DNA of 64,000 nucleotides. Origin: Impatiens glandulifera (taxonomy: Eukaryota; Streptophyta; Magnoliopsida; Ericales; Balsaminaceae). Below are positions 21,706 through 52,025 of the stretch, piece after piece. The notes below the pieces were generated by a model. It saw nothing but the letters and a program-made list of their open reading frames with translations, ran no database searches and was not told the origin of the DNA. Positions within the stretch are counted from its first letter, which is position 1; every line of letters starts with the position of its first letter. The position numbers and the translations under genes are program-made. The DNA is taken from NCBI RefSeq assembly GCF_907164915.1, contig NC_061863.1, forward strand, positions 23,947,710 to 24,011,709. Direction: 5' to 3'.

Positions 21706-23731
21706 TTGTGGATCCCACTTGATGTCCAAATTCAGGTGCTACCGACCATATTACTTCCGATCTTAATAATCTACACGTACATGCTCCTTATACATGTACT
21801 GAAATTATTAAAGTCGGAAACGGTATGCCTTTGAATATTTATAATATTGGTACTACTAAAATTTTAAATCAACAAAAATCTCTTAACTTAAGTAATATCT
21901 TACACGTTCTGAGTTTTACTAAAAATCTGAGATACGAAGATGAGTGTCGCAAGATTTTCATCAGATAATAACGTATTTTTTGAATTCCACCCGAATGTAT
22001 GTCTTATTAAAGACCGAGATACGAAGATAGTACTTCTTAAGGATTACTGAAGGATGGAATTTATTGCATTGAACATACTAAAAGTTTGTTTTCAACTAGT
22101 TCTAATAAACAAGTGTTCATTGGTATTCGATCTCCGGCTCAAATTTGGCATTCATGACTTGGACATCCTTCTAGCGCTACTACATCTTTAATTATATCAC
22201 AATTTAAATTATCAGTTTCAGATAGTAATACTATTTCTTTTTGTGGATCATGTCAATATGGGAAAGCACATAAACTACCTTTTTTTATTTTAAAATCTAC
22301 ATCTATGGCTCCTTTTGACCTAATTCATTCGGATGTTTGGGGATCTACTCCTGAATATTCGTCTACTGGTTGTCGTTATTTTATACATTTGAAGATGATT
22401 TTATCAAATTCACATGGATATATCCGCTAAAGAAAAAGTCAGATGTTTTGAATACGTTTATCAACTTTCTTCGACTTATTGAAAATTTATTTAGTCATAA
22501 AATCAAAATATTGCAAACTAATTGGGGAGGAGAATATTGAAATTTCAATTCATTAACGGATAATCATGATATTTTACATTGTTTATCTTGCCCATATACT
22601 AGTGAGCAAAACAAAATTACTGAACGAAAAATTCGTCAAATTACGGAAAATGATCTCACTTTATTAGCTCATGCATTTATGCCACTAAATTATTGGAGAG
22701 AAGTTTTTGAAACAGGCATATATCTTATCAATCGTTTTCCTACTCCGACATTATATCATCGTTCACCATTTGAGACTATATTTAACTCTTCTCCTGACTA
22801 TGGTTTATTGAAGACATTTGGGTGTTCTTGTTATCCACTCACACGACTGTACAATCAACACAAACTCGATTTGCATACTACTGAATGCAGTTTCCTTGGT
22901 TATAGCTCATCTCACAAAGGTTATAAGTGTCTTTACATTCCGTCTGGACGAATATTTATCTCTCGACATGTCACTTTTGATGAACTCACTTTTCCTTTCA
23001 AAAATAAGGATCTTGTGCACTTGTCTAAACCACAAGAAGATAATGAGACATCTCTTCCAACAAATATACTCAATTCATCGATACCACCTATATTATCTCA
23101 TATCACTTCATCGTCTCCAGCACCACCCTCTTCGACCTCCACAACATCACCAAACACTATATCATCTTCTTCTACTATTATTACCGTTCCTTCAACACAA
23201 CCAATTATCACAACAATTAATGCACCTAAATCTTTTACTAATCAGATGATCACACGCAATAAAGCATAATATATGTCCTCATCAACTCTCACTACTACTT
23301 CTTTTGCTATTACACCTACATATTTTATCAAAGCTAATAAGGATCCACAATGGCGTCTTGTCATGACAAATGAATATAATACTCTTATTCATAATAGAAC
23401 ATGATCTCTTAATCTTGTTGGATATAAATGAGTTTGCAAACTCAAGCATAAAGTTGACGGGTCTATTGATCGACATAAAATATGTCTTGTGACTAAAGGA
23501 TTCCATTAGCAACAAGGTATTGATTATGAAGAGACATTCAATCATGTGGCAAAACCCACTACTATTCGTGTTACTCTTTCTTTGGAAATATCTTATCAAT
23601 GGTTCATTCATCAACTTGATGTTAGTAATGCATTTCTTCATGAGTCTCTACAAAAATAAGTTTACATGGAATAACCACCCAGTTTTGTCCATCCAGATTT
23701 TCCTAATCATATATGCAAACTTCACGGGTTG
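21706..23731 (+). pseudogene. Copia pol remnant: protease, integrase, start of reverse transcriptase
   Basis: Protease motif NSGATDHIT near 21727 (the catalytic Asp is now Asn); pre-integrase HLGHPSSATT-like near 22150; integrase FDLIHSDVWG near 22320, frame-shifted through the core; a good 196-residue integrase C-terminal frame at 22679-23269 (NYWREVFETGIYLINRFPT, FGCSCYPLTR, SFLGYSSSHKGYKC), then a Ser/Thr/Pro-rich linker. The reverse transcriptase begins near 23340 (DPQWRLVMTNEYNTL) and reaches the [13 protein letters not shown] motif before breaking off at about 23727. Confidence 0.8.
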
Positions 23732-25944: not shown

Positions 25945-26440
25945 TACTTCTCAAGTGTTTCCAATTGGCGCTCTTCAGCACTGACTCAAACGCGAAAGAT
26001 GTTTACCAAATCTAAATAATGTTTAAATTTTTTTTCCATGTCTTTCATTTCTAACCCTTTACTCAATTGAGCCTTCAATTTGTCAATTTTATATTGTCTC
26101 TTTGATGCTATTGACATGTCATCAACGTACAAGATTAGATAGATATAAGACTCATTTTTGTAGTTTGCATAAATACACACATGAATTGAATTTGTTTTTT
26201 GTGTACTTGTGGTCCATAAACTTGTCAAGTCGCATGTACCATTGTCTCGACAATTGCTTCAACCCGTAGAATGATTTTTTTCAACTTGCAAACACAATTT
26301 TCTTTATCAGCAACTTTAAATCCATCTAGTTTAGACATGTAGATTTCCTCGATCAAATGACTGTCTCGAAATACGGTATTCACATCTAGTTGAACTAGAT
26401 CCAAATTCATCTGAGCTACTAAGGACAACAAAATTCTAAT
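25945..26440 (-). pseudogene. Ty1/copia reverse transcriptase fragment
   Basis: On the minus strand the frame at 26431-26225 carries LVQLDVNTVF, EEIYMSKLDGFKVADKEN and CKLKK. The frame at 26228-25986 carries the catalytic LILYVDDM box and the KAQLSKGLEMKDM segment. These are consecutive RT blocks of one copia protein with a frame break where they meet. No gag or integrase is attached. Confidence 0.85.
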
Positions 26441-33758: not shown

Positions 33759-36700
33759 TTGTTTCATGTAATAGTGCTAGCTTTACTATCCTACACTTCT
33801 AGTTCTTGTGGAATTGTTAGAATGGGTAATGATGACATTGTCAAAGTTATTGGTTTTGGAAACATGTGCCTACAACTTGAAAATGACAACACGTTGGTTA
33901 TGAAGAATTTGAAGCACATTCCCAACATTTACACGAATTTGATCTCCGCTAGGAAGATCGATTATGAATGCTTTTGCAATACTTTACTACTAAAGGCTCA
34001 TTGATATTAGTAAATGAAGAAAAGTTCTCCTCATTTTATATGATGCGGGCAACAATTGAAGATTCTTCAATCAATGCAGTTGATGATGAAGAAAACGTTG
34101 AGCTTTGGCACAACAAACTTAGTCATATGAGTGAAAAAAGTTTGATGATATTGGATAAGAAAATCCTTCTCTCTAGAGTGAAGAATGGTTCTTTGAAGAA
34201 GTGTACTCATTGTTTGACGGGGAAGCGGACTAGAGCCGCCTTAAAAAATGTTCCTCACTCGTGAAAACCAGGTTTACTTGAGTCAGTATATTTCTATGTG
34301 TGTGGTCCTATGAAAAAAAGACACTTGGTGGTGTCTTATATTTTGTTCCTTTTACTAACGACCATTCAAGAAAGAATTGGGTGTATACTTTAAAGTCCAA
34401 ATATCAATTGTTAGATGTTTTCAAAAGGTTTCATGTTCTTGTGGAAAGGCAGACTGACACAAAACTTATGTGTGTTCGGACGGATAATGATGGTGAGTAT
34501 TGTGGTCCTTTTTATGAGTATTTCAGGAAGAAAGGAATTCAACATTAAAAAAAACTACGAAGACACCTCAGTTAAATGGTTTAGTTGAGAGGATGAACCG
34601 GACACTAGTTGAAAGAGTGAAATGTTTAATTTAGCAATCACATCTTCCAAAATACTCTTGGGGTGAGACTTTGAATACAGTGGTACATGTTTTGAATCTC
34701 ACACCATGCGTTCCATTGGATTTTGAGGTTCTAGAAAAGATATGGTCGGGAAAAGAAGTTTCTTATGATAATTTATGTGTGTTTGTGTGCAAGGCTTTTA
34801 TTCATATTTTTAAAGATGAACGATCTAAACTTGATGTAAAAACGAGACATTGTGTATTCACTAGTTATGGGTTGAATAGTTTGGTTTCAGATTCTATGAT
34901 CCAATTCGGAAAAAGCTCATTAGAAGTCGAGATGTTGTGTTTATCGAAAACTAAAACATAACATATATTAATAAAATAGAAACAACTTAGAAGAAAAGCG
35001 ATGATTCTATTGAGATAGATCTAGTTCATACACATGTAGCACATTATAATCATGGGGGATATGTGTCAAATGATAATGATGGTATCACTAATGATGAAAT
35101 TCCGTCGATCAGTGATCCAACTGAAAATGTTGATGAAGAAGTTCAAAATGAACCAATTGAACCTTCTTTCAGAAAATATGTTAGAGAGTGTCGTCCCTCG
35201 ACGAGGTACCCTTTAGGTGAGTATGTGATGCTCACAAATGTAGGGAGATAGAAACCTACCTAGAGGCAATTTCTATTGATGAGAAAAGATGATCTTTGAA
35301 AGCTATGGAAGAGGAGATGAAATCACTTCATGATAACCACGCTTATGACTTGGTAAAGGTACCACAAGGCAAGAAGAATCTCATGAAAAATATATTTACA
35401 AGATTAAGACCGAAAATAAAAATTCACAACCAAGATACAAGGCTCGGTTGGTTGATAAATTCACTTTGAAGATATATTCTCTACGGTTGTGAAGATGCCC
35501 TCAATCTGAGTTGTTTTTAGTATAACAGCATGCTTGAACCTAGAGATTGAACAACTTAATGTGAAAACTGCATTTCTTCATGGTTATGTGGAAGAAGAAA
35601 TTTATATGGAGCAGCTAGAGGGATTCAATGTCACTGTAAAAGAGCATTTTGTGTGCAAATTGAAAATGAGCTTGTATGGTCTTAAACAAGCTCCAAGGCA
35701 ATGATACAAGAAGTTTCATCATTTTATGATAAGTCATGGGTACAATAAGACATCGTCAGATCACTGCGTATTTGTCAAAAAATACTCGAAAGATAACTTA
35801 ATTATTCTTATTTTACATGTTGACGACATGTTAATCATCGTCCATGATACTACCAAGATTGATATGTTGAAGAGAGAGTTGATCAAATCTTTTGCGATGA
35901 AAGATTTTGGACCGACGAAGAAGATATTCGGCATGAATATTTCTTGTGATAGAAAAAATGGGAAACATTGGTTATCTTAAAAAGACTACATTGAGAAAGT
36001 TCTTGAAATATTCAACATGTGTAAGGCCAAGACGATTTGTTCTATACTTGTATGTCAATTCAAGCTCACTTCTAATAAATATCCTAAGAGTGAGAAGGAG
36101 GAATAAAATATGAGCAAAGTTCCTTATTCGTCTATTTTCGATAGTTTGATGTACACCATGATTTGCACTCGTCCTGATATTGCTTATTATGTTAAAGTAA
36201 TTAGTTAGTTTCTCTCAAATCTTGGTAAATATCACTAGGAAGATATGAAGTGGATATTAAGATATCTGTGAGATACTTCCAAAGTGTGTTTGTATTTTGG
36301 CGGTAGTAATCTTATACTAGTTGGGTATACATATTTAAATATGGCAGGGGTGTTGATTCCAGGAAGTTTATTTCAGGATTTTTGATGACTTTTGCAGGGG
36401 GTTGTTTTGTGGAAATTAAAGTTGTAAAAATGTGTTGCGTTGTCCACCACAGACGCTGAGTACATTACAATCACTAAAGGTTGCAAAGAAGCATTGTAGA
36501 TGAAGAAATTTCTAAAATAGTTGGGTTGTAACCAAGATAAACTTTTTGTGTTTAACGATAGCCAGAACGCTATCAATCTCTCCAAAAACTCGTCATTTCA
36601 TTCCAAATCGGAGCATATTGATGTGCAATACCACTGGATTCGAGACATGTTTGAAAAAAGCAATTGCACTTGGCAAAAGTGCACACCAATAAGAATGGAT

Positions 36701-36798: not shown

Positions 36799-37399
36799 TG
36801 TTGGGGTGTCCGGCCCATAGACTTGGAGTTATAATATATATTATATATTATTATATACTATTCTATATTATTATATTAAATATTATTGTATAGTATTATA
36901 TACTATATAATAGATATCAATGGTTTCTAATCACAACATACAAGTTTGAGGGAAACAAGACAAAGAGAGCAAGACGAGGGAGGCATTAAGACGAAAAATT
37001 CATTTTTCTTCAATTACTTTCACTTCTCTTTCTAGATAGTTCTTAAAGGTTTATCTAATCATTCAGATTGTAAATCTTATTTTGTAAGAACTTTGTTTTA
37101 CCCATTATAAACGATATTATCGTGAATGGTTTAAGCGGCGTAAGGGTCTCGTGGTGTTTTACTTTTGTTGAAGGGGTTTTCCACGCTAAAGCTCACGTCT
37201 CTTTCCTTTTTTGTCTGCTTGGTTGAATTAATTTTGATAGCTTACAAACAGAGCACTAAAACTAAAAGGAATCATTTCTGCATTAGTTTCTTTTTTTATC
37301 AACAGAAGGTTACCCATCGGGTTCGTTCGTGGATTGGGAGTGTGCCAAACCCAAAACCTAATACCCGACTATATTAATATTAAAATATATATATATATT
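36799..37399 (+). repeat. 3' LTR (and flank) of the TNT1-94-like copia, first copy of a duplication
   Basis: Begins TGTTGGGGTGTCC directly after a GAGGAGGAGTA purine tract. From about 36934 (ACAAGTTTGAGGGAAAC) to 37399 it is repeated at 51487-51943. The large SIRE-type element is inserted at its right edge (ATATT, 37395-37399). Confidence 0.75.
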
Positions 37400-38613
37400 T
37401 GATAGAAAAATTTAGTAAGTTAATTTTTGGAACCGGCCAGACGAACTAAACAGTCGTTAACTTTCATGTGTAGATACAGATCAAAACCGTATGAACCGGT
37501 TGGGGCATCAAAACCGGTTGCTGCTATACTTCAAAGAAATCAGTTCCAAGTGATCAAGTTAAAGATTAGAGGAACCGGTTTTCACATTCTCAAGCGACCG
37601 GTCAGCAAAGTCAAAAACTTACATACCAACCGGATCATACTGCACAAGACACAAAACCGGAAGATTCAAACTTCAAGAGTGACGCACCATGATGAAAGAG
37701 ACGTGCTTTGAAAGAATAAAAGAAGATCAGATCCGATCGGAAGCATGCGAGTAAAGCAATGATGCTTTATTGATCTGAAGTTGACAACCTGAGGTGCATG
37801 TCCAACACGTGTCCAAATCTGAAAACCGATTATGTCATCTTCTGCTCAGAGCTGCCTGCATGACTGCCAAGTGTTGAGGAAGGTGAAGCGTGCAAGCAAC
37901 CTCTCTGCACCGGCGTGATAATGATCAACCAATCCAGAGGAGAGAGAAGAAAGTGACCGTTGGCTCTTCTCAGCTATAAAAGGAAGATGAAACGTCTTCA
38001 TTTAATGCAGCAGTTGTGAAGTCACAGATCACGAAACAAATCATAAGAGCAATAAGTTAGAGAGATAAACTGTTACGATCAAAACCGGTGTGTCTAAAAC
38101 CGGAAGCTTTCTGTATTGTGTTGTGTTGAGTTATTGTATTACATCAAAGAGTGAGTTTAGTGTAACCGGCGAGTAGAGAAGTTGGGCTCGACCGGAAGTG
38201 TTGTTGTAACTATAAAAGTTAGTGGAGATCCTTCTCATAACCTGAGAAGAAGGGGTGACGTAGGAGGGTTTGCTCCGAACATCCATAAAATTCTTGTCTC
38301 GTGTTCTTTCTTTTGTTTTCATTACCTACTTACTTAACCTAACCTCAAACCAATCGTACTCCAAAAACCGGTCACTCATATCCATAAAACCGACTCCTCC
38401 TAAAACATCATCTAAAGTCGCAAACGTTGCTTCAACCTAAAACAGACATTTCCGCCCTTGAACCCGGTTTAAGAGTCTGACAGTTTGTGTAGTGCTGAGA
38501 ACGGTTATAGTCTCTAACCGGACTATCACCAAAGTGTTGTGTGTGTTGTAAGCGGCCACCCTTCCTAAAACCGGAAACACCCCGGTCCTCCAAGGGCGTC
38601 CCCGATCCTAACA
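37400..38613 (+). repeat. 5' LTR of the SIRE-type element
   Basis: 1,214 bp. Rich in ACCGG (about 15 copies by eye), including three perfect AACCGGTT palindromes at 37494-37501, 37512-37519 and 37573-37580. Confidence 0.95.
37975..37983 (+). promoter_or_regulatory. LTR TATA box
   Basis: TATAAAAGG in the 5' LTR (TATAAAAG at 50743-50750 in the 3' LTR), preceded by CCAATCC at about 37929. Likely core promoter for the genomic RNA. Confidence 0.75.
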
Positions 38614-38615
38614 AG

Positions 38616-38627
38616 TGGTATCAGAGC
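38616..38627 (+). promoter_or_regulatory. Primer-binding site
   Basis: TGGTATCAGAGC, a perfect initiator tRNA-Met PBS, 2 bp after the LTR. Confidence 0.93.
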
Positions 38628-38659
38628 GAGGTTCTTAGCACTCAAGCAACCGAAAAAAG

Positions 38660-40456
38660 ATGGGAAGCATGACCCACAGCGACAAGCCACCAATGCTAAA
38701 CAGAGAAGCGTTTAGCAGTTGGAAGAAACAGATGTATCTACATCTGATTAAATTAGATGATGAGATGAGCCGAGTCCTGAATAAGGGACCGATCAAGATC
38801 AACAAGGAGGCAGACCTATGGACGAATGAAGATCGAAGACGGAGTAACCTGGACAACCATTGCATGAGGCACATCTACAAGGCTATAGATGATAACACTT
38901 TGAACAAAATATCAGAGTGTGAAAATGCAAAGGAAGCCTGGGAAACGATCATTCAGATCCATGAGGGAAACGAAAGAACTAAGGAGAACAAAATCGTGGT
39001 GGCTACACAGAAATATGAAAACATCAGGATGAAACCGGGGGAAAACATGAAGGAATTCAGCAACCGGTTCACCAGTGTAGTCAACGAGCTTCAAACACTC
39101 GGAAAGAAGTATGACAACCGAGAAGTAATCATCAAAGCCCTAAGATCTCTGCCAAGCACGTGGGATATCAAGACCATGGTGATGAGGGAATCGAGCACCC
39201 TTGGGCATATGAAGTTGCATGATGTGTTCAAGGATCTAAAAGTCTACGAGTTCGAGATCAAGTCTCGGATCGAAGACGAAGCATCCACATCAACCGCAAC
39301 CAGAGCTTTGGTTACATCGGTGGAACCGGCGGTCCAAGTATCAACCGTTCCGACTCCAGTCAAAAACACCGATCAAATTACTGAAGATGTGATGGCGATG
39401 TTAGCTCAGAAATTCGGGAAGTTCATGAAGAAGAGCCAGCCACCATCTAACAATGATTTTAATTATAACTATGTAGATAAATCAAACAAAAGATGCTATA
39501 ACTGTGATGGTTTTGGACATTTCAGGTCAGAGTGTAGAAAATCAAGGAGAGACGACAGAAAACCGGAAGGAAACTATCAGGGGAACAACTATCAAGGCAA
39601 CCGGTACCAGGGAAACAACTATCAAGGGAATAACTACCGGGGAAACAACAACCAACGAAACGACTACCGGAGAAACGATGATCAGCATGCAGACGAAGGA
39701 AAGGAGATTCAGAAAGCGCTCATTGCATCCGACGGCGGAAGCAAGTGGGCATACTCCGATAATGAAGACGGTGAAGAGAAAGTAACCTGCTTCATGGCAA
39801 ACGACGAAGAGGTATTTGATTTCTCTTCTAACGAGTTTACCAAAGAAGATCTGGTTTCTGCACTCAACCAAATGGTTGCTGAGTTCAGAAACATATCTGC
39901 ATACATACCAACTCCGATAGAATCTAAAACCGAACAAATAAATAATGTATATGATAAAACATGTGAAATCGAAATGTATGAACCGGATGAACTATTCTCC
40001 GATAATGAGAAGACAGTTCAACCGGTAACCGAAACCGATGAACGAGCAATGTACGTCACGGCTGCGTGGGAGAGATCGCGTCAAGCGGTAAAAAAAATGT
40101 ATAACTATAAAAGACACCCTAAGCGTAGGTATGGTATCGGTTATGAACCAAATAAACAAAACGAATCAAAACAGCCTAACGGGATAAAACTCACGAAGAA
40201 CAATCTTCCGTTTATAAAATTTGTCAAGAGTTCACAAACCGAAAATGACTTAAAACCGGAAGAAACACTTAAGTATGTAAGCCCTACTGAATCAGAAAAA
40301 TGGCTTCATCCTGAGAGAAGGAAGGTAAACCGGATGTCAAATAAACCCAATAAAACTCGACATCAAAGAAACTCATCACAACATAAGGCATTCTTGAGCA
40401 ACAGCCAAGAAGTTAAGCCAAATATTATAAAAACAGATACCGGGAAAGTGATCTGA
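38660..40456 (+). CDS. Gag of the SIRE-type element
   Basis: 598 residues from the first ATG after the PBS. Residues about 15-190 form the DUF4219/UBN2 gag core (FSSWKKQMYLHLI, AKEAWETIIQIHEG, SNRFTSVVNELQTLGKK, LRSLPSTWDIKTMV). A single CCHC knuckle lies at about 278-291 (CYNCDGFGHFRSEC). It is followed by a tandem peptide of the form NYQGN/RYQGN/NYRGN (about 303-345), Asn/Gly/Arg-rich and probably RNA-binding. The C-terminal third is polar and low-complexity. Gag and pol are in the same frame, separated by TGA at 40454-40456 and another TGA at 40505-40507, so gag-pol was probably one frame before these changes. Expected to assemble cytoplasmic virus-like particles. Confidence 0.92.
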   Translation: MGSMTHSDKPPMLNREAFSSWKKQMYLHLIKLDDEMSRVLNKGPIKINKEADLWTNEDRRRSNLDNHCMRHIYKAIDDNTLNKISECENAKEAWETIIQIHEGNERTKENKIVVATQKYENIRMKPGENMKEFSNRFTSVVNELQTLGKKYDNREVIIKALRSLPSTWDIKTMVMRESSTLGHMKLHDVFKDLKVYEFEIKSRIEDEASTSTATRALVTSVEPAVQVSTVPTPVKNTDQITEDVMAMLAQKFGKFMKKSQPPSNNDFNYNYVDKSNKRCYNCDGFGHFRSECRKSRRDDRKPEGNYQGNNYQGNRYQGNNYQGNNYRGNNNQRNDYRRNDDQHADEGKEIQKALIASDGGSKWAYSDNEDGEEKVTCFMANDEEVFDFSSNEFTKEDLVSALNQMVAEFRNISAYIPTPIESKTEQINNVYDKTCEIEMYEPDELFSDNEKTVQPVTETDERAMYVTAAWERSRQAVKKMYNYKRHPKRRYGIGYEPNKQNESKQPNGIKLTKNNLPFIKFVKSSQTENDLKPEETLKYVSPTESEKWLHPERRKVNRMSNKPNKTRHQRNSSQHKAFLSNSQEVKPNIIKTDTGKVI

Positions 40457-40525
40457 CTTATTCAAGTCTGGATCCCAAAGGGACTAATCAACTATGGACC
40501 CAACTGAAAAGGTGTAAATAATTGT

Positions 40526-43500
40526 TTGTTGCAGGTTAGGAGGAGCAACTGGCTAAAGAATTCAGAATGGTACCTGGACAGTGGATGTTCAAGGCATATG
40601 ACCGGAAACAAAGAATTACTAATAGACATCAAGTACGAAACCGGAGAAATCATCACATTCGGGAACAACTCGAAAGGTAAAACCGTGGGCAAGGGTAAGA
40701 TTGTCCATGGTAACTTATCCATAAGCAATGTATTATTGGTAGAAGAACTGCGTTTTAACTTGTTAAGCATAAGTCAAATGTGTGATGTGGGTTACAAAGT
40801 TGAATTTCATAAAAACTCATGTTTAGTTAAAAATCAGGATAATGACATTATGTTAACCGGTAACCGGATGGGAAACATTTACAAAGTTGATTGGAAAACT
40901 GATTTTGAAAAACCTGTGTGTATGATAGCCGGAAATGATCCAAACTGGCTTTGGCATAAACGGTTAAACCATTTGAATTTCAAAACGATTAACTTCATTT
41001 GTTCCAAGGAACTAGTTCACGGTTTTCCAAACGTTAAATTCTCAAAAGATAAAGTATGCACTGCATGTCAAATGGGCAAACAAGTAAAATCATCTTTCAA
41101 AAGTAAAGGAAATTATCAATCTGAACGATGCTTAGAACTCTTGCATATGGATCTGTTTGGCCCGGTCAAAGTAACTAGTTTAGGAGGCATGCATTATACC
41201 ATGGTAGTTATTGATGATTATTCTAAATTTACTTGGGTTACCTTTCTAGCTTCTAAAAGCAAGCAACTCCAAACCTGATTAAATTGATTTTGAGAATACA
41301 AAATGAAAAATCCATTCGAGTGAACAAAATTAGAAGTGATAGAGGAACTGAGTTTATAAAAAGCAATTTAACTACTTTTCTTGATGATTCCGGTATTAGA
41401 CACGAGTTGTCTAGTGCCAGAACTCCTCAACAAAATGGCCTGGCCGAGAGAAGAAACCGGACTCTCAAGGAAGCCGCAAGGTCAATGATAGCTGATTCGG
41501 GTATTGCTCAAAAGTTTTGGGCTGAAGCTATCAACACCGCTTGCTATACACAAAATCGATCTTTAGTAACTAAACGGTTTTCTAAAACTCCTTTTGAAAT
41601 TTACTTTGATCAAATTCTAAGTGTACGTTATTTTCGAATTTTTGGTAGCAAATGTTTTGTTCACAAAAACGGCAAGAATTACTTGACCGCTTTTGATGCT
41701 AAATCCGATGAGGGAATAATGTTGGGATATTCAGCTGTGAGTAAAGCCTACAGAATATACAATACTAGGACTTTAACAGTTGAAGAAACCGCACACGTTG
41801 TTTTCGATGAATCGGTTGAACGAAACACTGTATTACCCTTCGATCTTCACAACAGAATGGAAAATTTTAATATCTATTCTGATGATGAAGACGAGGTTCC
41901 GGTTTTTAGACGATTTGTCAAGGACCAAGCGGTTGATGTTGAACTTCAGCCTGATCAAGCTGCTTTACCGCAGAAAGTTGACACTTCAGTTTCTACTGAA
42001 GAAATCGGTCGGTCTGACTCTGTTCAACCTACCGATCAGTCTCACATTGATCAGCCAACCGAAAGCTTGATAGACACGTCTCGAATTAACCTCAGAAGGA
42101 ACAAAAATCATCCTCTTGAACTAGTAATAGGTAACATATCCTCACCCGTCCGAACTAGGCAACATAATTTGGATCACTATAAAAACTCAGCTTTCATATC
42201 ACAAATTGAGCCGAAAAAGGTGGATGAAGCATTGTCAGATCCAGATTGGATCTTAGCAATGCAAGAGGAATTAAACGAGTTTGAGAGAAATAAAGTCTAG
42301 TACCTAGTCCCTAAACCGAAAAACAAACCGGTTATAGGAATACGATGGGTATTCAGAAATAAACTCAATGAAGACGGTTTAGTTACGAGGAACAAAGCCC
42401 GGTTAGTGGCTCAAGGCTATAAACAGGAAGAAGGCGTTGATTTTGAAGAATCATTTTCCCCTGTAGCTAGACTTGAGGCCATTAGAATATTTTTAGCATA
42501 TGCAGCTTTTAAAAACTTCAAAGTTTTTCAAATGGATGTTAAGAGTGATTTTCTAAACGGTAAAGTAAATGAAGAGGTGTATGTTAATCAACCTCCAGGT
42601 TTTAAAAATCCAGAACACGAAAATCATGTTTACCGGCTGAATAAAGCCCTTTACGGTTTGAAACAAGCTCCAAGAGCTTGGTATGACACATTGACACAAT
42701 TTTTATTTGATCACAAATTCACAATAGGTTCGGTAGACAAAACACTTTTCAAATTTGAAAGAAAGGAACAAATATTTCTTGTTCAGATTTATGTTGATGA
42801 TATCATATTCGGATCAACCGATCCAAAATTATGTGACAAGTTTTCGAAAATGATGACTGATAGATTTCAAATGAGTATGATGGGATAATTGAGTTTCTTT
42901 CTAGGACTTCAGGTTAAGCAGATTGAAGCCGGAACCTTCATAAGCCAACCAAAGTACACAGCCGAACTACTGAAGAAATTTGGAATGGATACATGTGACG
43001 AAGCGGCTACGCCAATGAGTCCTTCCGTAAAGCTGGACAAAGATGATGATGGTCAAGCCGTTGACATCACAGCCTATCGAGGAATGATCGTGTCACTGCT
43101 ATATCTAACAGCCAGTCGACCTGACATTTTGTTTGCGGTTGGAGTGTGCGAAAGGTTCCAAGCAAATCCAAAGTAATCTCATTATACGGCGGCCAAAAGA
43201 ATTCTAAAATATCTGAAGGGAACTCAAGAAGTGGGACTTTGGTACCCAAAAGACTCAAGTTTCAATCTTATAAGCTACTCAGATGCCGATTACGCAGGAT
43301 GCAAGATTGATAGAAAGAGCACAAGTGGAACCTGTCAATTCCTAGGTGACCGGTTAGTCACTTGGAGCAGCAAGAAACAAACATCTGTTGCAACATCAAC
43401 CGCAAATGCAGAGTACATAGCGGCTGGAAGCTGCTGTGCACAACTTCTTTGGATCCAACAACAGCTAAGGGAATTCGGGATAGAAGCCAAGGAATCTCCA

Positions 43501-43746
43501 ATCTTCTGTGACAACACCAGTGCTATAGCGATTACATACAATCCGGTGTTGCACTCAAGAACAAAGCATATCGATATTAGACACCATTTCATCCGGGAGC
43601 ACATTCAGGAGAAACACATCCGGCTGGAATATGTCTCGACCGAGCAACAAGTAGCGGATATATTCACGAAACCGCTACAGGAAGCTAAGTTTTCTCACTT
43701 TCGAAATATCTTGGGACTTACTAATCTTAATCAACTGATATCATGA
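40526..43746 (+). pseudogene. Pol of the SIRE-type element (protease, integrase, RT, RNase H), disrupted
   Basis: Domains in order: aspartic protease (WYLDSGCSRHMTG, about 40568); pre-integrase WHKRLNHLNFKTI (about 40950) with CTACQMGKQ; integrase DDE core (LHMDLFGPVK, IRSDRGTEF, PQQNGLAERRNRTLKEAARS); integrase C-part (FGSKCFVHKNGK, EGIMLGYS). RT has [10 protein letters not shown] (usual Ala replaced by Asp), [12 protein letters not shown] and catalytic IYVDDIIF (about 42790). RNase H has YSDADYAGCKIDRKS, TANAEYIAAG and CDNTSAIAITYNP, then the usual DIFTKPL end. Breaks: a frameshift near 41262-41284 inside integrase, TAG at 42298-42300, TAA at 42886-42888 and TAA at 43174-43176. The rest of the sequence is well conserved, so these breaks look recent. 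Confidence 0.93.
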
Positions 43747-44443
43747 TTATGCTTGTATAAAACCGGGATATGTGTTCAGGGAGAAGCTCTCGCTTCTCAA
43801 ACCATATTCAAATAGGCCATTGATAAATCAAAAATGCTAACCGGGAGGAAGTCTCCGGTTATGCCCGATTACTTCATAATTTCAAATCACATGTATATTT
43901 ACTATACGGTTGAAATAACCAGGTTGAAGTAGATATAATAAATCCAAAGTTGAGCAAATGTTGACATAAATAAACCTTTCTTCACAATCGGAACAAAATA
44001 TCCTACTAAAACCGGTCATGGAAAACCGCTTAGTACAAATGCATTCTGGTCTGATAGAATGAACTCCTCCGGTTAACCTGGGATGACTGACTGAGTTTTC
44101 ATGCATATTTTGAAAAATGAAGCCTGCAATCAATAAAAACAGTCTACCACAATCAAGATGACGACATGTGTCCATCATCAAGAGAGGGAGATTAACATCT
44201 TGTCAATAGATATTTGTCATCATTAATATCTTGGTAATAATTAGATTTCGCCTTGGAAATAAACATTATTTACTTCAACAAGTTAAAGCTTATTAAATGA
44301 CTGATGACATCATCAAGCATGCTTAAAACTCATTAATCTAGCCGAACCCCTGGCTATATAAACCACCCTTAAACCTTCACAAAACTTTACAAGATTACTA
44401 TTCACAAGTATCATTCTTGAGATTAACCTTCTCTCTCAAGAAC
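43747..44443 (+). other. Spacer between pol and accessory ORF A
   Basis: About 700 bp without a gene, containing several ACCGG motifs. Its last 90 bp look like a plant core promoter and leader (TATA box, then a C/T-rich leader). Confidence 0.6.
44354..44362 (+). promoter_or_regulatory. TATA box upstream of ORF A
   Basis: CTATATAAA, 82 bp before the ATG at 44444, followed by a C/T-rich leader (CTTCTCTCTCAAGAAC). Confidence 0.65.
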
Positions 44444-45181
44444 ATGAACTTCAACTCTCTAGCAAAGAAGATTCTATTGGCAGATTTTAATTCAATCTAC
44501 CAATATGAAGATCACGAAGTCAAAGAAATGTTCTTAGCCGTAGAAAGAAGCGGGCTAAGAAGCTTCCTCGAAAACAGATTCATTCTCGACTACCTAGTAG
44601 TTGAAGAATTCTTCCAGACCGGAAAAGAAGTGCATCGAGATATAATCGTTGCACAAGTCTACGGTCAGAAATTTCTATTCAGCGAGACGGATTTCGTTGT
44701 ATACTGCGGTTTGCCCACTGAAGGGGTGACCGACCTAACATACTCACCGGTAACCATGGAAGAGATGTGTCGCCGGTTCTCAGGATCTGACATCCCGGTT
44801 AAACCCTGGGGTGCTAAAAGCCAACTATCTCATAAGTACCAGCTTCTCTGTGAGATCCTGGGAAAGTCCGTTTTGGGCAGAGAGAAAAGCTATTACTACA
44901 CCCAAAGGCTTTTCGAGATGATGATCGCTGTAACGGTTGGGACACCGGTTAACTAGTCTTGGATCATCTTCAGTAACCTGAAGAAGATGCTCCTCTCCAA
45001 CAAAACCGGCTACGCCCCTCAGCTGAGCGGTTTTTGTGCAAGTCTGGACATCCACTCCGGACCGTTCGTAACCCTCCATCCAAGGCATGTGCTCACCAAG
45101 GAAAGAGTACAAGAGATGGTCGATCGGTGGGAAGCAGTGAAGGCTAGAAGAAATCAAGCGGCTGAGTCATATAACGTCTAG
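44444..45181 (+). pseudogene. Accessory ORF A of the SIRE-type element, one in-frame stop
   Basis: Function unknown. 246 codons from the first ATG after the TATA box (MNFNSLAKK) to a stop at 45179-45181, interrupted only by TAG at 44954-44956. ORF B has Trp at the matching place (INW against VN-stop), so this is probably a TGG-to-TAG change. Shared landmarks with B and C: an N-terminal DF, SGLRSFL, VEEFF, LFSETDF, LPTEG, and with B also RRFSGSDIPVK and a C-terminal FSNLKKML / FAPQ-like APQLSGF block. No signal peptide, membrane segment, zinc site or catalytic motif is visible. From memory, similar proteins are predicted in some Lamiales genomes, and the domain may belong to the group called putative plant transposon protein; both need a database search. 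Not evidently an envelope protein. Confidence 0.7.
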
Positions 45182-45622
45182 CCTGTCCTTTTCCTCTGTC
45201 CTATTTTACTTCCTTTCCAAAACCGGTAATTTTGTTGTACTACCGGTTTTGTACATCAATCAATGAAGCAGATTTCCTTCCTCTTTTAAGTTAAAATTAA
45301 AAATCATAAATGACCAAACATTTAATGTGCCGTATCAAAATAAAATCAGATCACTCTTGGAAACAGGAATCGTCATTCTCAATAAGCATGCATGACTTGA
45401 TTAGACAAGACATGTCTTTATTCTCTTGAAAAATTACAAAGTCATTAATGACTAGACATAAACGGCTAGATTTTTCAAATATCCTCATTAAATGCTCTCA
45501 ACCGTTACAAGCTATAAAAGGGGGCTCAACCCTCCATTCTCAAAACATGCTTCCTGCTTTTCTTCTCTCTAGAGCTTGAAAAATCACAAAAATCTCCTCA
45601 GCCTCTCTCACTCCTCCGCATA
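45182..45622 (+). other. Spacer between ORF A and ORF B
   Basis: Holds the putative ORF A 3' end motif TTTTGTTGTAC (45230-45240), an RY-type CATGCATG (45387-45394) and the ORF B promoter. Confidence 0.5.
45513..45520 (+). promoter_or_regulatory. TATA box upstream of ORF B
   Basis: TATAAAAG, 110 bp before the ORF B ATG, followed by a C/T-rich leader (TTTTCTTCTCTCTAGAGC). Confidence 0.7.
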
Positions 45623-46384
45623 ATGTCGGCCGAACTCAGAAATACCCTTATCGTCGATTTCGAAGACGTCAAAGACAGTGCATACTATGAATGTATTTTT
45701 CAACCTATCATAAAATCGGGACTTCAAGGTTTTCTTAAAGGTTCAGACACTATCCACGTGGAGGAGGTGTGTGAATTTTTCAACAACGGTCATGTTCTAG
45801 ATGATGGCAGCATCTGCACCATCGTCGACAGTCAATTCCTTCGGTTTACCGAAGAGGAATTCGCAAACTTCTTTCACCTTCCAACCGAACGTTTTTCGGA
45901 CTTCCCAACGCCGTTCCTGCCGGCTAAGGAAGACTTCTTCCAGATGTTTTCTTCTTCCAACGCTCCGATCAAGGACTTTGGAAAGAAAGAAACACTCGCT
46001 CCTCACTACCAAGTCCTGCATGACTTGGTTCAAAGGTCTATCATGGGCCGAATGCCTAACCAGAACTACAACCGGGAGGCTTTCGACATCATGATAGCCA
46101 TCATTCGAAACTCGTCGATCAACTGGGCAACCTACCTCTTCAACAAACTGAAGCAGATCATGACCGCTGCAAGGGGAAGGACCAGTTTCGCTCCTCAAAT
46201 CACCCGGTTCCTGATGTCTAAGCGCTGCAACCTTGGAACCGGTGTTCCGGTTGGACCGTCCAACACCATCACCATGCTCATGATGCACAGGTGGATATCA
46301 AGGATTGAGGAACGGTCACCCGAAAACACCGTGGAAAAGTGGTACGAAAGGATGGTGGAAGGGGAATGGTTCAAAGAAGACTAA
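45623..46384 (+). CDS. Accessory ORF B of the SIRE-type element, intact
   Basis: 253 residues, fully open: the only intact member of the three. Same family as ORFs A and C: VDFEDV at the start, SGLQGFL, VEEVCEFF, FTEEEFANFF, LPTERF, MFSSSNAPIK, HYQVLHDLVQRSIMG, FDIMIAIIRNSSINWATYLFNKLKQI, FAPQITRFLM. The C-terminus ends in a Trp/Glu/Lys-rich helix (RWISRIEERSPENTVEKWYERM). No transmembrane or signal segment and no known catalytic motif. The ATG is the first after the TATA box, with a 110-bp leader. Probably a soluble protein; function unknown. Its survival while neighbours carry stops may be chance, or recent selection in the parent element. Confidence 0.75.
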   Translation: MSAELRNTLIVDFEDVKDSAYYECIFQPIIKSGLQGFLKGSDTIHVEEVCEFFNNGHVLDDGSICTIVDSQFLRFTEEEFANFFHLPTERFSDFPTPFLPAKEDFFQMFSSSNAPIKDFGKKETLAPHYQVLHDLVQRSIMGRMPNQNYNREAFDIMIAIIRNSSINWATYLFNKLKQIMTAARGRTSFAPQITRFLMSKRCNLGTGVPVGPSNTITMLMMHRWISRIEERSPENTVEKWYERMVEGEWFKED

Positions 46385-46416
46385 GTTATCTGTCTTTCCT
46401 CTCCGGTTTTTGTTCA

Positions 46417-46427
46417 TTTTGTTGTAC
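46417..46427 (+). terminator. Shared 3' motif after ORF B
   Basis: TTTTGTTGTAC, 33 nt after the stop. The same 11-mer is at 45230-45240, 49 nt after the ORF A stop. It resembles plant UUGUA-type far-upstream polyadenylation elements. Inferred. Confidence 0.4.
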
Positions 46428-46618
46428 GACCAAAACTGCTCAATGCTCACTATTTTTATTTATGAAATATTTAATCTTCAAAGTCTCCGGTTTTCATTCA
46501 TATCTTTCTTTCCGGTTTCTTAAACTTATACACAAAAACTTAAGGTTAACCTAAAAACTTCCTGTTAACAAGTCTTCAAGTAAAACCGGAACTTCGAGCA
46601 AAACGAAAATTTGAAAAA

Positions 46619-46723
46619 TTTACCGCCCACGGTTTTACCTCCCAATATTTACCGCCCATGGGTTTTCCGCATTTACCGCCGAAAGTTACTGCAGTAACTT
46701 TTGGAGGAAAAGTTGGCGCCAAA
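46619..46723 (+). promoter_or_regulatory. Cluster of E2F-like motifs and two palindromes upstream of ORF C
   Basis: TTTACCGCC occurs three times (46619-46627, 46648-46656, 46672-46680). A perfect 20-bp palindrome AAAGTTACTGCAGTAACTTT lies at 46682-46701. Another palindrome, TTGGCGCCAA, lies at 46713-46722; read on the minus strand with its flank it gives TTTGGCGC, a match to the E2F consensus TTTSSCGC. The cluster sits 46-150 bp before the ORF C TATA box. Regulation by E2F is inferred only. Confidence 0.5.
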
Positions 46724-46768
46724 AACATCAAACGACGGTTCGTTTTCCAACCGTTCGGAACCGCCATC

Positions 46769-46776
46769 TATATAAG
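46769..46776 (+). promoter_or_regulatory. TATA box upstream of ORF C
   Basis: TATATAAG, 115 bp before the ATG at 46891, with a C/T-rich leader (TTTCTCTCTCTAAAATTTCC). Confidence 0.7.
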
Positions 46777-46890
46777 TTCACATCAGCCCATTCGACACAT
46801 GTACTTTCTCTCTCTAAAATTTCCAGATCTTCAAAGGCTCTCTTATCTCCGATCATCATCGTTCTTTATTCCTCTCTTTTCAAAACTATC

Positions 46891-49808
46891 ATGGATCTAA
46901 GCAAAGCCCCTTTCCAATGGATGTTGCAAGTTGACTTCGCAGATATTGATGAACACGCCGATGACAAAAACAAGGATGTTCTTCAATCTCTAAGAGATTC
47001 TGGGTTAGAGGAATTCCTATCTGGTCCGTTCACCATTTATCTGGCGGCCGTGACGGAGTTTCTGGCGACGGCGACGCTCACAAAGAGGAATGTCTCAGCC
47101 ACAGTCAACGGGAAGGACATTCTGATCACCGAAGAGTTATTTGTTGAAGCTCTCGGTCTGCCCAACACCGGTCTGGACCTATAGACTGACCTAACCGCTG
47201 CAAAATCAAACGCTGTCTAGTTGGTGGTTTCTTTCTCAGATCAGGATCTGGTGATTCACTCTAGTCGGAAGAACAAGCTTAAACCGGAGTTCAGGTGGCT
47301 ACTGAACATCATCGCCCCTCACTTTAGGGAAGAGGAGGTAACTTCGATAACCTGACGAAACTTAAACTCAAGATGCTGATGGCCATTGTCCGCGGTGACA
47401 AGGTGGATTGAGGATACGTCATTTTCGAAGAATTTTGCCAGATGGTGATTAAGAAGGATGGCCGGGTACAGGCTTTCGCAAAGCAGATTGTGAAAATCCT
47501 TAAGTCCCTTAATGTAGAGCTTGGTGACGGAGAACCGCTTCCTCTCAACAATATTCTCAACTCAGAGTCGGTGATTGAGAAACCAGAGAAAGCGGTTAAA
47601 CCGAAATCTTCCAAAACAAAGTCATCCAAAGGAACCAGTTCTTCCGCTCCGGCTGAGGAAGTTATCAAACAAAAGAAATCCAAAAGAAAGGCGGTTGAAA
47701 CCGAAACCACACAAGAATTGAAGGGGAGGAAGAAAGCGGCTGCAAGGAAGAGTTCCAACAAACCGGCGGACTCCGAGAAAACTCTTTCCTCGGATAATCC
47801 ACCAGAAAGAACCGGAGACGTCTTTCAACCCATTCCCATCAACACCGTTATTCCTACCCCTGTTCCATCTAACTCACCAAGGCAAACCGAATCCTCGGGG
47901 AGCCAGAAAACCGAATCAGCGCCCAAGGAGGAAGCAGAGGTTAGTATTCACTCTGAAACCTCCAAGTCACCAAGCAAACGAATTGAAGAGGTAATAGCCG
48001 ATGTGGGCTTGAATACTTCTGAAGCAATTGAGGACGTTATCCAAGACATTGCAAGGGAAACCGAGGACGATGTGTCAAGTCGTCGCAAATTAATTGATCA
48101 GGTTGAGATACCTGATCAGAGTGAAGTTCAACCGGTCGAAGAAACGGCCAAAACCGCAGACATTACACCTCCGGCTCAGGAGAGTAATTTTGATGAACAG
48201 GAACCATCCGGTTCCGCATGGGGCAAGACAACTCCAGAAAACCAATCGGCTCAAGATGGGTCATCTGACTCAGCATTCATACCTGAAGGTTTTATTCAGG
48301 TCAACAAAGGAAAAGGGGTTCTTATCAAAGATTCAACGGTAACAGGAAAAGGTACGCTGCAGACCGGTCCTCAACCAGAAGTCATAACCGGGAACGAGGT
48401 TCCCTTTACCGCAGAACAAGAAGATGAAGTATTCGAGGAACTTCTCAAGGACATGAACAAGGGTGCGAGTGATGTGATAGCTCCATACCTCATATGGGTA
48501 AAGCTCCGGTGTGAAACAAAGATATCCGACATGGCTCCAGGATTGAGCGGTAACAGGCATTGGGACAGACTCATCAGGCTGGAAGAAAGGGCCCTCCAGT
48601 TAGCTCACACCAATCTTATCCAACCTGCCTTTAACAAAACCGCAGTAATTCTTGAAAACACTCGGTTACAAGCAGTGGAGAATGCTTTTAAAGAAACTGA
48701 ATGAGCGACGCTAACTCCGATTGAAATGAGAATGTCCGAACGGTTCCATGCGGTGCGAGAAAAGCTCGTACAAAATCTCGACCATCTTGATATGTAATGG
48801 AGGAAAGGTTGCCGAAGCCAACTCAATAATGTCGATCTACATCAAAGTAAGCCATTCTATGTAATCGGGGAATCATCTACAACAGCGGAGAACCTGGAAC
48901 AAGAATCTTCTCAAACGGCTAAGGTTCCGGAAATCGATCAAATGAAGCAGGCGGTGATTGATACCATTGATTCATGCCTTGGAAGTTATAAAACGGCAAC
49001 CGATGAGAGGATTGCAACGGCTGAAGCTAATCTGTCAAACACTATACGGGGATCTGTACAAACCGAAATCGCAAACACCGTTCAAACATCTATCAGGTCC
49101 ATGATAGATGCGGCTGTGCAGACCTCAGTAAAATCCTTGATCGCCGAGTCCATCCAAACCGCAACCGCTCCACTATTAGATATGCTGCAAGCAATGGCCA
49201 TTCAAATTGGGGAGTTGTCCAAAATCCAAGTCAGCAAGACTCAAACGCAAATCGAGTCGGATGCTGAAACCGCTAAGAGGCTGCAAGAGGAAGAAATGGA
49301 AAGGGAACGGGTGCAGAAGGAGATTGAAGACAAAGATTATGAGCTTTCCCAAAAGTGCAACGAGGAGGAATAGGCAAGCATCCAGGAATCCCAACCGGCT
49401 CAACCGTCCCATTCAATGAACACAAGGAATAAGAAGAAACGGAGCGCGGTTGCGAAAGTAATCAAGCGGGCAGAACAAAGAGCAGTTGTACCAGTCGTGT
49501 TGAATGTGCAACCTCTTGATGAAGAAGAAGAAGAGGACACTGAAGAACTTAACCAACGGAAGAGAAGGGCAATTGAAGGCTCAACCGCAACCACAAGCCC
49601 CAGACCAATCTTTGCTCCGCCGCCTCCTCCACCAAAACTAGTTTGTGCCGGTTTTGGATTTAGCAAAAAGACTCTAGGCCACTCAAGTGTATGGGCCGGA
49701 ATGTTGATCGACGCTGAAAGACGTGATGGGGAGTGGAAGGCAAGAGACGAAGAAGAAAGAAGACGGCTTGAGAAAGAGCTGGAAAAGGGGGGACCATCCA
49801 AGCCTTAA
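46891..49808 (+). pseudogene. Accessory ORF C of the SIRE-type element: long protein, disrupted
   Basis: About 970 codons. The first 98 (to TAG at 47182-47184) match the N-terminal half of ORFs A and B (VDFADI, SGLEEFL, TEFL, ITEELFVEALGLPNTG). The domain continues past further stops (TAG 47218-47220) and a frame change near 47343 into the frame 47442-49808. TGA at 47409-47411 falls where ORF B has Trp. The tail is Ser/Lys-rich with nuclear-signal-like patches (KQKKSKRK, GRKKAAARK, about 47670-47740) and an acidic, Pro/Thr-rich stretch. After TGA 48702-48704 and a TAA near 48796 comes a helical region with a repeated VQT/IQT unit about every 12 residues (49057-49170) and a Glu-rich coiled coil (RLQEEEMERERVQKEIEDK). 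After TAG 49371-49373 it ends with a basic segment, six prolines and KLVCAGFGFSKKTLG. Possibly nuclear or RNA-binding; function unknown. Confidence 0.65.
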
Positions 49809-49940
49809 TCTTTTTCTTCTCTTTCAAAACAATTTATGTTTAAACTATGTTTCTGAACTTGGTTATTTTATCATATTTCTCTCCTCGAGTTTACACATAC
49901 TTTTCTTTTGAAAAATCAAACACATGTTTTTGAAACATTC
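49809..49940 (+). other. Spacer after ORF C
   Basis: T-rich 3' flank without recognised motifs, leading into the tandem purine-tract repeats. Confidence 0.4.
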
Positions 49941-50207
49941 TCATTACAAGTTTTGAATATTTATTCTAAATAATCAAAAAGGAAGAAATTGATAGAAAAA
50001 TTAAGTAAGTTAATTTTCAAACCGGCCACTCATTACAAGTTTTGAATATTTATTCTAAATAATCAAAAAGGGAGAAATTGATAGAAAAATTAAGTAAGTT
50101 AATTTTCAAACCGGCCACTCATTACAAGTTTTGAATATTTATTCTAAATAATCAAAAAGGGAGAAATTGATAGAAAAATTAAGTAAGTTAATTTTTAGAA
50201 CCGGCCA
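49941..50207 (+). repeat. 89-bp tandem repeat x3 at the polypurine tract / 3' LTR junction
   Basis: Units start at 49941, 50030 and 50119. Each starts TCATTACAAGTTTTG, passes a purine tract (AAAAAGGGAGAAAT) and ends with the first 35-40 bp of the LTR (TGATAGAAAAATTAAG...ACCGGCCA). The last unit runs into the real 3' LTR at 50168. Each unit could in principle prime plus-strand synthesis. Confidence 0.92.
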
Positions 50208-51383
50208 GACGAACTAAACAGTCGTTAACTTTCATGTGCAGATACAGATCAAAACCGTATGAACCGGTTGGGGCATCAAAACCGGTTGCTGCTATACTTC
50301 AAAGAAATCAGTTCCAAGTGATCAAGTTAAAGATCAGAGGAACCGGTTTTCACTTTCTCAAGCGACCGGTCAGCAAAGTCAAAAACTTACATTCCAACCG
50401 GATCATACTGCACAAGACACAAAACCGGAAGATTCAAACTTCAAGAGTGACGCACCATGACGAAAGAGACGTGCTTTGAAAGAATAAAAGAAGATCAGAT
50501 CCGATCGGAAGCATGCGAGGAAAGCAATGATGCTTTATTGATCTGAAGTTGACAACCTGAGGTGCATGTCCAACACGTGTCCAAATCTGAAAACCGATTA
50601 TGTCATCTTCTACTCAGAGCTGCCTGCATGACTGCCAAGTGTTGAGGAAGGTGAAGCGTGCAAGCAACCTCTCTACACCGGCGTGATAATGATCAACCAA
50701 TCCAGAGGAGAGAGAAGAAAGTGACCGTTGGCTCTTCTCAGCTATAAAAGGAAGATGAAACGTCTTCATTTAATGCAGTAGTTGTGAAGTCACAGATCAC
50801 GAAACAAATCATAAGAGCAATAAGTTAGAGAGATAAACTGTTACGATCAAAACCGGTGTGTCTAAAACCGGAAGTTTTCTGTATTGTGTTGTGTTGAGTT
50901 ATTGTATTACATCAAAGAGTGAGTTTTGTGTAACCGGCGAGTAGCGAAGTTGGGCTCGACCGGAAGTGTTGTTGTAACTATAAAAGTTAGTGGAGATCCT
51001 TCTCATAACCTGAGAAGAAGGGGTGACGTAGGAGGGTTTGCTCCGAACATCCATAAAATTCTTGTCTCGTGTTCTTTCTTTTGTTTTCATTACCTACTTA
51101 CTTAACCTAACCTCAAACCAATCGTACTCCAAAAACCGGTCACTCATATCCATAAAACCGACTCCTCCTAAAACATCATCTAAAGTCACAAACGTTGCTT
51201 CAACCTAAAACAGACATTTCCGCCCTTGAACCCGGTTCAAGAGTCTGTGACAGTTTGTGTAGTGTTGAGAACGGTTATAGTCTCTAACCGGACTATCACC
51301 AAAGTGTTGTGTGTGTTGTAAACGACCACCCTTCCTAAAACCGGAAACACCCCGGTCCTCCAAGAGCGTTCCCGATCCTAACA
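50168..51383 (+). repeat. 3' LTR of the SIRE-type element
   Basis: 1,216 bp, about 98% identical to the 5' LTR. Followed by the ATATT target duplication at 51384-51388. Confidence 0.95.
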
Positions 51384-52025
51384 ATATTAAATTTATTTAT
51401 TTATTTTGTTAAAGATGTGACTTTTCAAATTCTTAATCATTATAATCATTACAATAAATATAAATAATCTATTAATCATTATAATCACAGCACACAAGTT
51501 TGAGGGAAACAAGACAGAGAGAGTAAGACGAAAGCATACATTAGGAAGAAAAACTCATTTTTCTTCAATTACTTTCACTTCTCTTTTTAGATAGTTCTTA
51601 AAGGTTTAAATAATCATTCAGATTGTAAATCTTATTTTGTAAGAACTTTGTATTACCCAATATAAACGATATTGTAGTGGATGGTTTAAGCGGCCTAAGG
51701 ATATCGTGGTTTTTTACTCTTGCTGAAGGGTTTTGCACGCTAAAGATCACGCCTCTTTCCTTTTTGTCTGCTTTGTTGAATTAATTTTGATAGCTTACAA
51801 ACAGAGCTCTAAAACTAAAAAGAATCATTTCCACATTAGGTTCTTTTTTTATCAACAGAAGGTTACCCATCAGGTTCGTGAATTGGGAGTGTGCCAAACC
51901 CAAAACCTAATACCCGACTATACTAATATTAAAATGTATATATTAAATTTATTTATTTTGTTAAAGATGTGACTTTTAAAATTCTTAATCATTATAATCA
52001 TTACAATAAATATAAATCATTTAAT
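51384..52025 (+). repeat. Second copy of the TNT1-94-like LTR segment plus flank
   Basis: 51389-51475 (AAATTTATTTATTTATTTTG...AATATAAAT) continues the first copy that the SIRE-type element split at 37399. 51487-51943 repeats 36934-37399, and 51944-52020 repeats the flank. So a segment of roughly 550-650 bp was tandemly duplicated. Confidence 0.75.

Follow-up and report, generated by a model that had tools for sequence, protein, structure and literature searches.

Three related genes downstream of pol, each preceded by a conserved TATA box, in a Sirevirus-like copia retrotransposon of Impatiens glandulifera

We examined a stretch of 64,000 nucleotides from Impatiens glandulifera (contig NC_061863.1, positions 23,947,710 to 24,011,709 of the forward strand), which we call the window and whose own coordinates are used throughout. 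At 37400-51383 it holds a structurally complete, Sirevirus-like retrotransposon of the copia type, 14 kb in length. Downstream of pol lie three related genes on the forward strand, A, B, and C, which start at 44444, 45623, and 46891 and encode members of one protein family. An earlier sequence-only reading of the window had proposed these three open reading frames (ORFs), and both their positions and their shared direction are confirmed. ORF A (44444-45181, forward strand) is open from 44444 to 44956 (170 amino acids), where an in-frame TAG at 44954 cuts the window copy. Homology continues in the same frame to 45178, and in sibling copies A is 245 amino acids long. ORF B (45623-46384, forward strand; 253 amino acids) is fully intact, as had been stated. 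ORF C (46891-49808, forward strand) is broken into pieces at 46891-47184, 47442-48704, 48942-49373, and 49416-49808. C is not a small gene. In one of 12 sibling C regions, C is a single frame of 977 amino acids, with an ending that resembles the last ORF of the window. The ORFs that start at 47442, 48942, and 49416 in the window are therefore pieces of C. The linker between pol and A measures 0.7 kb, and the distance from the pol stop codon is 1.9 kb for B and 3.1 kb for C. A and B consist of a single domain, while C joins the same domain of approximately 230 residues to a long tail that is charged, serine- and proline-rich, and contains basic clusters and helical stretches. The tail is probably disordered and coiled.

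That A, B, and C belong to one diverged family is borne out both by BLASTP (A-B 75.5 bits, E 1e-21; A-C 46.6 bits, 2e-12; B-C 37.0 bits, 1e-8) and by profile-profile comparisons that include sibling copies (A-B 7e-22, B-C 4.9e-18, A-C 3.2e-12, over 211-217 columns). The three proteins are about equally distant from one another, with pairwise identities of 27-29%. Among named families, Transposase_32 (PF20167) comes closest; it is related to Athila ORF1 according to passages of PMC11728184. Four sibling pieces of C matched this family at 27.2-30.8 bits (best E 3.3e-7) and the window copy of C at 12.3 bits, while a Pfam search with A returned no match to it. The profile check that had been suggested for B gave a marginal match (14.3 bits, E 0.039), which, like every other PF20167 score, falls below the Pfam gathering cut-off of 45 bits. 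By these scores, PF20167 is a distant relative of A, B, and C, which are not members of it. Protein searches matched only gene models of I. glandulifera itself (one of 149 candidates for B, one of 3039 for the A/B/C profile, and nine of 7991 scored for C); because this search requires shared 5-residue words, it does not demonstrate that relatives are absent outside Impatiens. In the NCBI gene models of I. glandulifera, pieces of C have been annotated as genes of the host. Models P0001 and P0004-P0012, with names such as “DNA ligase 1-like” and “autophagy-related protein 23-like”, represent retrotransposon proteins of the C family, and model P0001 fuses part of an ABC transporter with the end of a B gene.

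One conceivable reading makes A, B, and C an envelope-like gene set, derived from or belonging to a retroviral envelope that carries particles from cell to cell. Their location after pol is that of the Sirevirus env-like ORF, as described in parts of PMC2829016 and PMC4093653, and the C tail is coiled-coil-like. However, simple hydropathy analysis found no stretch of transmembrane grade in any of the three proteins (best 19-residue Kyte-Doolittle means of 1.27, 0.79, and 1.17 for A, B, and C), and the only family that they resemble is tied to Athila ORF1 and not to any protein of the fusion type (PMC11728184, in the passages cited above). We consider an envelope-like role very improbable. The earlier view of the paralogues as soluble-looking needs amending for C, which is not a small protein but a domain with a long tail.

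We searched the 654-Mb genome that contains the window for sibling loci. The best 150 of 18831 first-look candidates for B were scored, and all were 84-100% identical to it over nearly their full length; the best 150 of 19325 candidates for A were 91-100% identical. Loci selected by A had B as the next gene in 29 of 30 cases. Conversely, among 30 loci selected by B (the window copy included), A was found at a coverage of at least 80% in 29 and C in 27, with one missing C explained by an assembly gap and another by a deletion-like loss. A search with a C relative also retrieved eight loci that belong to a diverged subfamily. All eight encode A (80-91% identical) and C (68-75%), and seven encode a whole or partial B (54-68%), in unchanged order. 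The A-B-C order, whose conservation the sequence-only reading had put forward as a check, is thus retained in most sibling loci and in seven of the eight diverged loci. The remaining diverged locus, L075, has C directly after A and no B, which indicates that B can be lost.

A separate question is whether the proteins encoded by these genes are maintained. Within the family (28 loci plus the window, 29 sequences), the pooled ratio of nonsynonymous to synonymous substitution rates (dN/dS) was 0.180 for A, 0.166 for B, and 0.207 for the first 98 codons of C, against 0.76-2.15 in the off-frame controls; this is the comparison between siblings that had been proposed earlier. Across subfamilies, in loci picked for unbroken alignment length, dN/dS was 0.083-0.108 for A (three loci), 0.215-0.282 for B (four loci), and 0.111-0.132 for the C domain (four loci), at dS values of 0.68-1.44 and with off-frame controls of 0.91-2.92. 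B is the fastest-evolving of the three genes in this comparison. The compared frames, spanning 735 nt in A, 759 nt in B, and 690 nt in the C domain, showed no change in length. We conclude that purifying selection acts on A, B, and C. If the genes were instead decaying passengers without a role, their open frames would be chance survivals in young copies. It is true that A and C are broken in the window copy, and that in-frame stops occur in six of the 30 best A loci and nine of the 30 best B loci. Nevertheless, low dN/dS at dS near 1, together with constant frame length, leaves this explanation barely credible.

How might the three genes be expressed? Each is preceded by a TATA box on the forward strand. 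The box of A, TATATAAA (44355-44362), conforms to TATAWA in 39 of 39 sequences and in eight of eight diverged loci. The box of B, TATAAAA (45513-45519), is present in all 29 A-selected loci that have B and in six of seven diverged loci, and that of C, TATATAAG (46769-46776), in 32 of 34 sequences and seven of eight diverged loci. The boxes start 89, 110, and 122 bp upstream of the respective ATGs, in agreement with the 82-115 bp reported before, which had been measured from the box ends. In the diverged loci, mean linker identity per 12-mer is 0.81 upstream of A, 0.67 upstream of B, and 0.64 upstream of C, and the conservation of the TATA 8-mers across subfamilies is equalled by 28 of 413 (A), 24 of 434 (B), and six of 493 (C) windows. 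Within the family, the TATA box of B is among the best-kept linker blocks, with the 12-mers at 45508-45510 ranking sixth to eighth of 409. The leaders, taken from 35 bp past the TATA box to the ATG, contain no other ATG in 39 of 39 sequences for A, 36 of 36 for B, and 32 of 32 for C. Segments of the same length immediately upstream lack an ATG in one of 39 (A), none of 36 (B), and 29 of 32 (C), so this test favors A and B but not C, where the upstream sequence is also mostly ATG-free. Taken together, the conserved TATA boxes and the ATG-free leaders of A and B suggest, indirectly, that the linkers contain internal promoters. These candidate promoters are not copies of the long terminal repeat (LTR), which shares matches of merely 9-12 bp with the linkers.

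The linkers contain further conserved sequences. Between pol and A, far upstream of the TATA box, the blocks 44160-44220 and 44032-44045 are nearly invariant in 31 sequences. The 12-mers at 44032 and 44169 show no differences among these, and 44169-44172 is kept across subfamilies as well. Upstream of the TATA box of C (46745-46755 and 46713-46724) lie the palindrome TTGGCGCCAA and repeats of TTTACCGCC, with an identity of 0.875-0.92 per 12-mer across subfamilies. The palindrome resembles an E2F site. As judged by transversions, the linkers taken in full show no clear slowing relative to fourfold sites.

Alternatively, the LTR promoter could drive A, B, and C, through splicing or through re-initiation or readthrough on the genomic RNA, in which case the TATA boxes would be incidental AT-rich sequence. 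There is precedent for this: passages of PMC2829016 report predicted splice acceptors for the env-like genes of Athila and BAGY2, and stop-codon suppression for SIRE1. The pyrimidine-rich leaders are also compatible with a 3' splice site. The leader of A has two AG dinucleotides that are conserved in 92-95% of sequences, and that gene may have a splice acceptor. On the other hand, no AG in the B leader reaches 70% conservation (the best is kept in 68%), and the best in the C leader is kept in 76%. The TATA boxes persist while the surrounding linkers have diverged by 19-36%, in A and B the ATGs end where transcription would be expected to start, and the distances of B and C from the pol stop codon make readthrough unlikely. 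Expression from the LTR seems to us rather unlikely overall.

Several observations, the conserved AGs of the A leader among them, weigh against internal promoters and the functional module built upon them. TATAWA occurs in each linker about as often as chance predicts (1.76, 0.96, and 0.79 expected), so the case for promoters rests on conservation rather than on presence. Within the family, the TATA boxes of A and C are not clearly distinct from their surroundings. In the ATG test, C gives no contrast, and the outcome for B hinges on where the leader is taken to begin: eight of 31 B-selected leaders, from another set of loci, hold one boundary ATG when measured from 32 bp past the TATA box. 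The loci share ancestry, and their counts are therefore not independent. Finally, the AlphaFold2 structure of B was unusable, with a mean predicted local distance difference test score (pLDDT) of 41.6 from a 3-row alignment of the window proteins. This was too weak to support a fold search. A 7-row alignment with added C gene models aligned badly and was discarded.

The 3' ends of A and B provide a second type of conserved feature. A hairpin with the loop AUUUUGUUGUAC sits just 3' of both stop codons. The hairpin after A spans 45218-45251 (forward strand; loop ATTTTGTTGTAC at 45229-45240), and that after B spans 46407-46436 (forward strand), with the same loop at 46416-46427 and one stem pair broken in the window copy. 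No hairpin follows C in the window. The hairpin after A ranks with the most conserved blocks, within the family as well as across subfamilies. Standard pairs occupy 93.3% of cells across 20 distinct sequences, compared with 68.6% in shuffled and at most 52.2% in slid controls, and covariation is 0.614, compared with 0.236 shuffled and at most 0.310 slid. Much of this signal comes from the difference between stems of the A type and those of the B type; the B group adds a few compensated changes of its own. Some of the hairpin sets were collected by their loop, which makes loop constancy in those sets a product of their construction; the measures of block conservation are unbiased. The pattern TTGTTGTA[AC] follows A in six of eight diverged loci and B in five of seven. 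The 26-mer core of the A hairpin occurs at 364 exact places in the genome, compared with none for its reversed control, which marks this as a high-copy lineage with at least 364 copies of the core. Rfam returned three sub-threshold matches within 43700-50200, none of which overlaps the hairpins. The loop contains UGUA in a U-rich setting, and U-rich elements with UGUA are described as plant far-upstream poly(A) elements in passages of PMC11245536. A role of the hairpin as a poly(A) signal would fit this loop. However, AAUAAA-like hexamers in the next 60 nt are not above control (40 of 41 against 40 of 41 after A; nine of 47 against 19 of 47 after B), and a strong signal at this location would cut the genomic RNA.

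The hairpins also bear on how the three genes came to lie in one element. The simplest origin, and a likely one, is that A, B, and C were duplicated inside the element. Alternatively, the three cassettes could have been captured separately from different elements. This would fit the near-equal distances among A, B, and C, as well as published SIRE extra ORFs, which passages of PMC6317226 sort into 19 groups that resemble one another little. However, the hairpins of A and B have the same loop, which points to duplication of an entire cassette. In addition, A, B, and C resemble one another far more than they resemble PF20167 (14-31 bits, with none for A), although the methods behind these two comparisons differ. 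We think separate capture unlikely.

Considering all of the above, we think it fairly probable that the three genes after pol make up an accessory module of the element, in which each gene has its own TATA promoter and gives rise to a short mRNA, and in which the proteins act jointly inside the cell. RNA polymerase II would transcribe A, B, and C each from its internal promoter, starting downstream of the TATA box, and the resulting separate mRNAs would be translated from their first ATG, with that of C ending with the LTR. A and B would be single-domain partners of the large C protein in the cell, and the three together would serve a step that the element needs in order to spread. A fuller version of this proposal is, in our estimation, evenly balanced between true and false. 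It states that each of A, B, and C is a complete gene for RNA polymerase II with its own conserved promoter, that two of them share a structured 3' element, and that all three have been kept together through long-term retrotransposition; that their promoters would be the first identified internal promoters of Sirevirus accessory genes; and that a U-rich hairpin with a UGUA loop on a covarying stem would mark the mRNAs of A and B.

The remainder of the element shares several features with the Sireviruses. Its LTRs (37400-38613, 1214 bp, with a TATA box at 37975; and 50168-51383, 1216 bp; both forward strand) have TG...CA ends, and a target-site duplication, ATATT, flanks the element at 37395-37399 and 51384-51388. 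The Kimura two-parameter distance between the LTRs is 0.0175, which corresponds to an age of 0.7-1.35 million years at assumed substitution rates of 1.3e-8 and 6.5e-9. The gag gene (38660-40456, forward strand) is open and encodes a large protein of 598 amino acids (Pfam Retrotran_gag_2, 3.8e-25) with a CCHC knuckle, as in Sireviruses, though the zf-CCHC score of 19.0 bits is slightly below the cut-off of 20.8. The pol gene (40598-43746, forward strand) is in pieces here, with stops and a frame change after 41278, and matches gag_pre-integrs (6.2e-19) and RVT_2 (1.4e-35). The 5' LTR ends in CA and leads into a Met-tRNA primer site, AACA AGTGG TATCAGAGC (38610-38627); this junction, CA and then TATCAGAGC, is named as a Sirevirus hallmark in passages of PMC2829016. 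According to the same source, the Sirevirus polypurine tract (PPT) octamer AGGGGGAG ends 2 bp before the 3' LTR, at an AT/TG attachment site. The octamer here, AGGGAGAA, differs from it at two positions and the attachment site matches. Copies of the tract are clustered near the 3' LTR, as in Sireviruses: three 89-bp direct repeats (49940-50206, forward strand) contain the tract and the LTR start. The upstream copies here retain AT/TG, whereas upstream copies in the published Sirevirus passages do not. AACCGG occurs 12 times per LTR, against 0.3 expected, and is also enriched in the linkers and coding regions. AACCGG/CCGGTT is strongly enriched across 37400-51383, with no clear excess in the flanks. 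It could represent the local version of the palindromic CGG-CCG motif that Sireviruses repeat in the LTR and upstream of env, though its layout differs from the published one. We call the element Sirevirus-like on account of these hallmarks (primer site, AT/TG, repeated tracts, mid-LTR TATA box, and large gag). Repeats that are approximately 91% alike lie on both sides (36925-37403 and 51479-51952), along with an 80-bp repeat at 51395 and 51947, so the element seems to lie within another repeat. The window holds further copia reverse transcriptase fragments at 18762-19097, 23615-23725, 26037-26389, and 35555-35911, the longer of which are 33-41% alike to that of the element.

How does this arrangement compare with known systems? 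The element resembles the Sirevirus/SIRE (Maximus) lineage in size (14 kb, compared with 14.42 kb for Maximus in passages of PMC2829016), in the hallmarks listed above, and in having extra coding capacity after pol. It differs in carrying three genes of the same family rather than one forward 3' extra ORF (env-like, eORF-3'F), as the sequence-only reading had anticipated, and in having a TATA box at each gene as well as 3' hairpins. SIRE1 of soybean is likewise a copia element with extra coding sequence after pol, but there a single env-like ORF follows pol after nothing more than a stop codon and is expressed by suppression of that codon (PMC2829016, in part), in place of the 0.7 kb linker and TATA-led units seen here. 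According to passages of PMC2829016, the idea that the Sirevirus env gene has an internal promoter goes back to Peterson-Burch and Voytas, and Bousios et al. supported it but did not identify the promoter conclusively; the text of MASiVEdb, in part, also lists an internal promoter among the mechanisms of expression. Athila elements, in turn, have 3' extra ORFs, and their ORF1 family (PF03078; Transposase_32, PF20167) weakly matches the C domain and marginally matches B, but they are Ty3/gypsy elements, while the host here is a copia element with three copies, of which A is unmatched and all score below 45 bits. LTR retrotransposons of bdelloid rotifers (PMC5408684) likewise carry several extra ORFs in an animal host, a likeness drawn from the description in the abstract. 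Our literature searches, which covered open-licence papers, listed no single copia element with multiple extra ORFs related to one another.

SIRE elements commonly contain additional ORFs downstream of pol, and these belong to many groups that are unrelated to each other; passages of PMC6317226 and PMC2829016 present both what they do and how they are expressed as open questions. The survey of such ORFs applied a minimum of 250 codons (PMC6317226, in part), so A, at 245 codons, would be missed by surveys of this kind. With one family present three times, in high copy number, under selection throughout, and behind marked candidate promoters, the function and expression of extra ORFs become testable, and with this element so does the question of how and why plant retrotransposons retain “envelope-like” genes.

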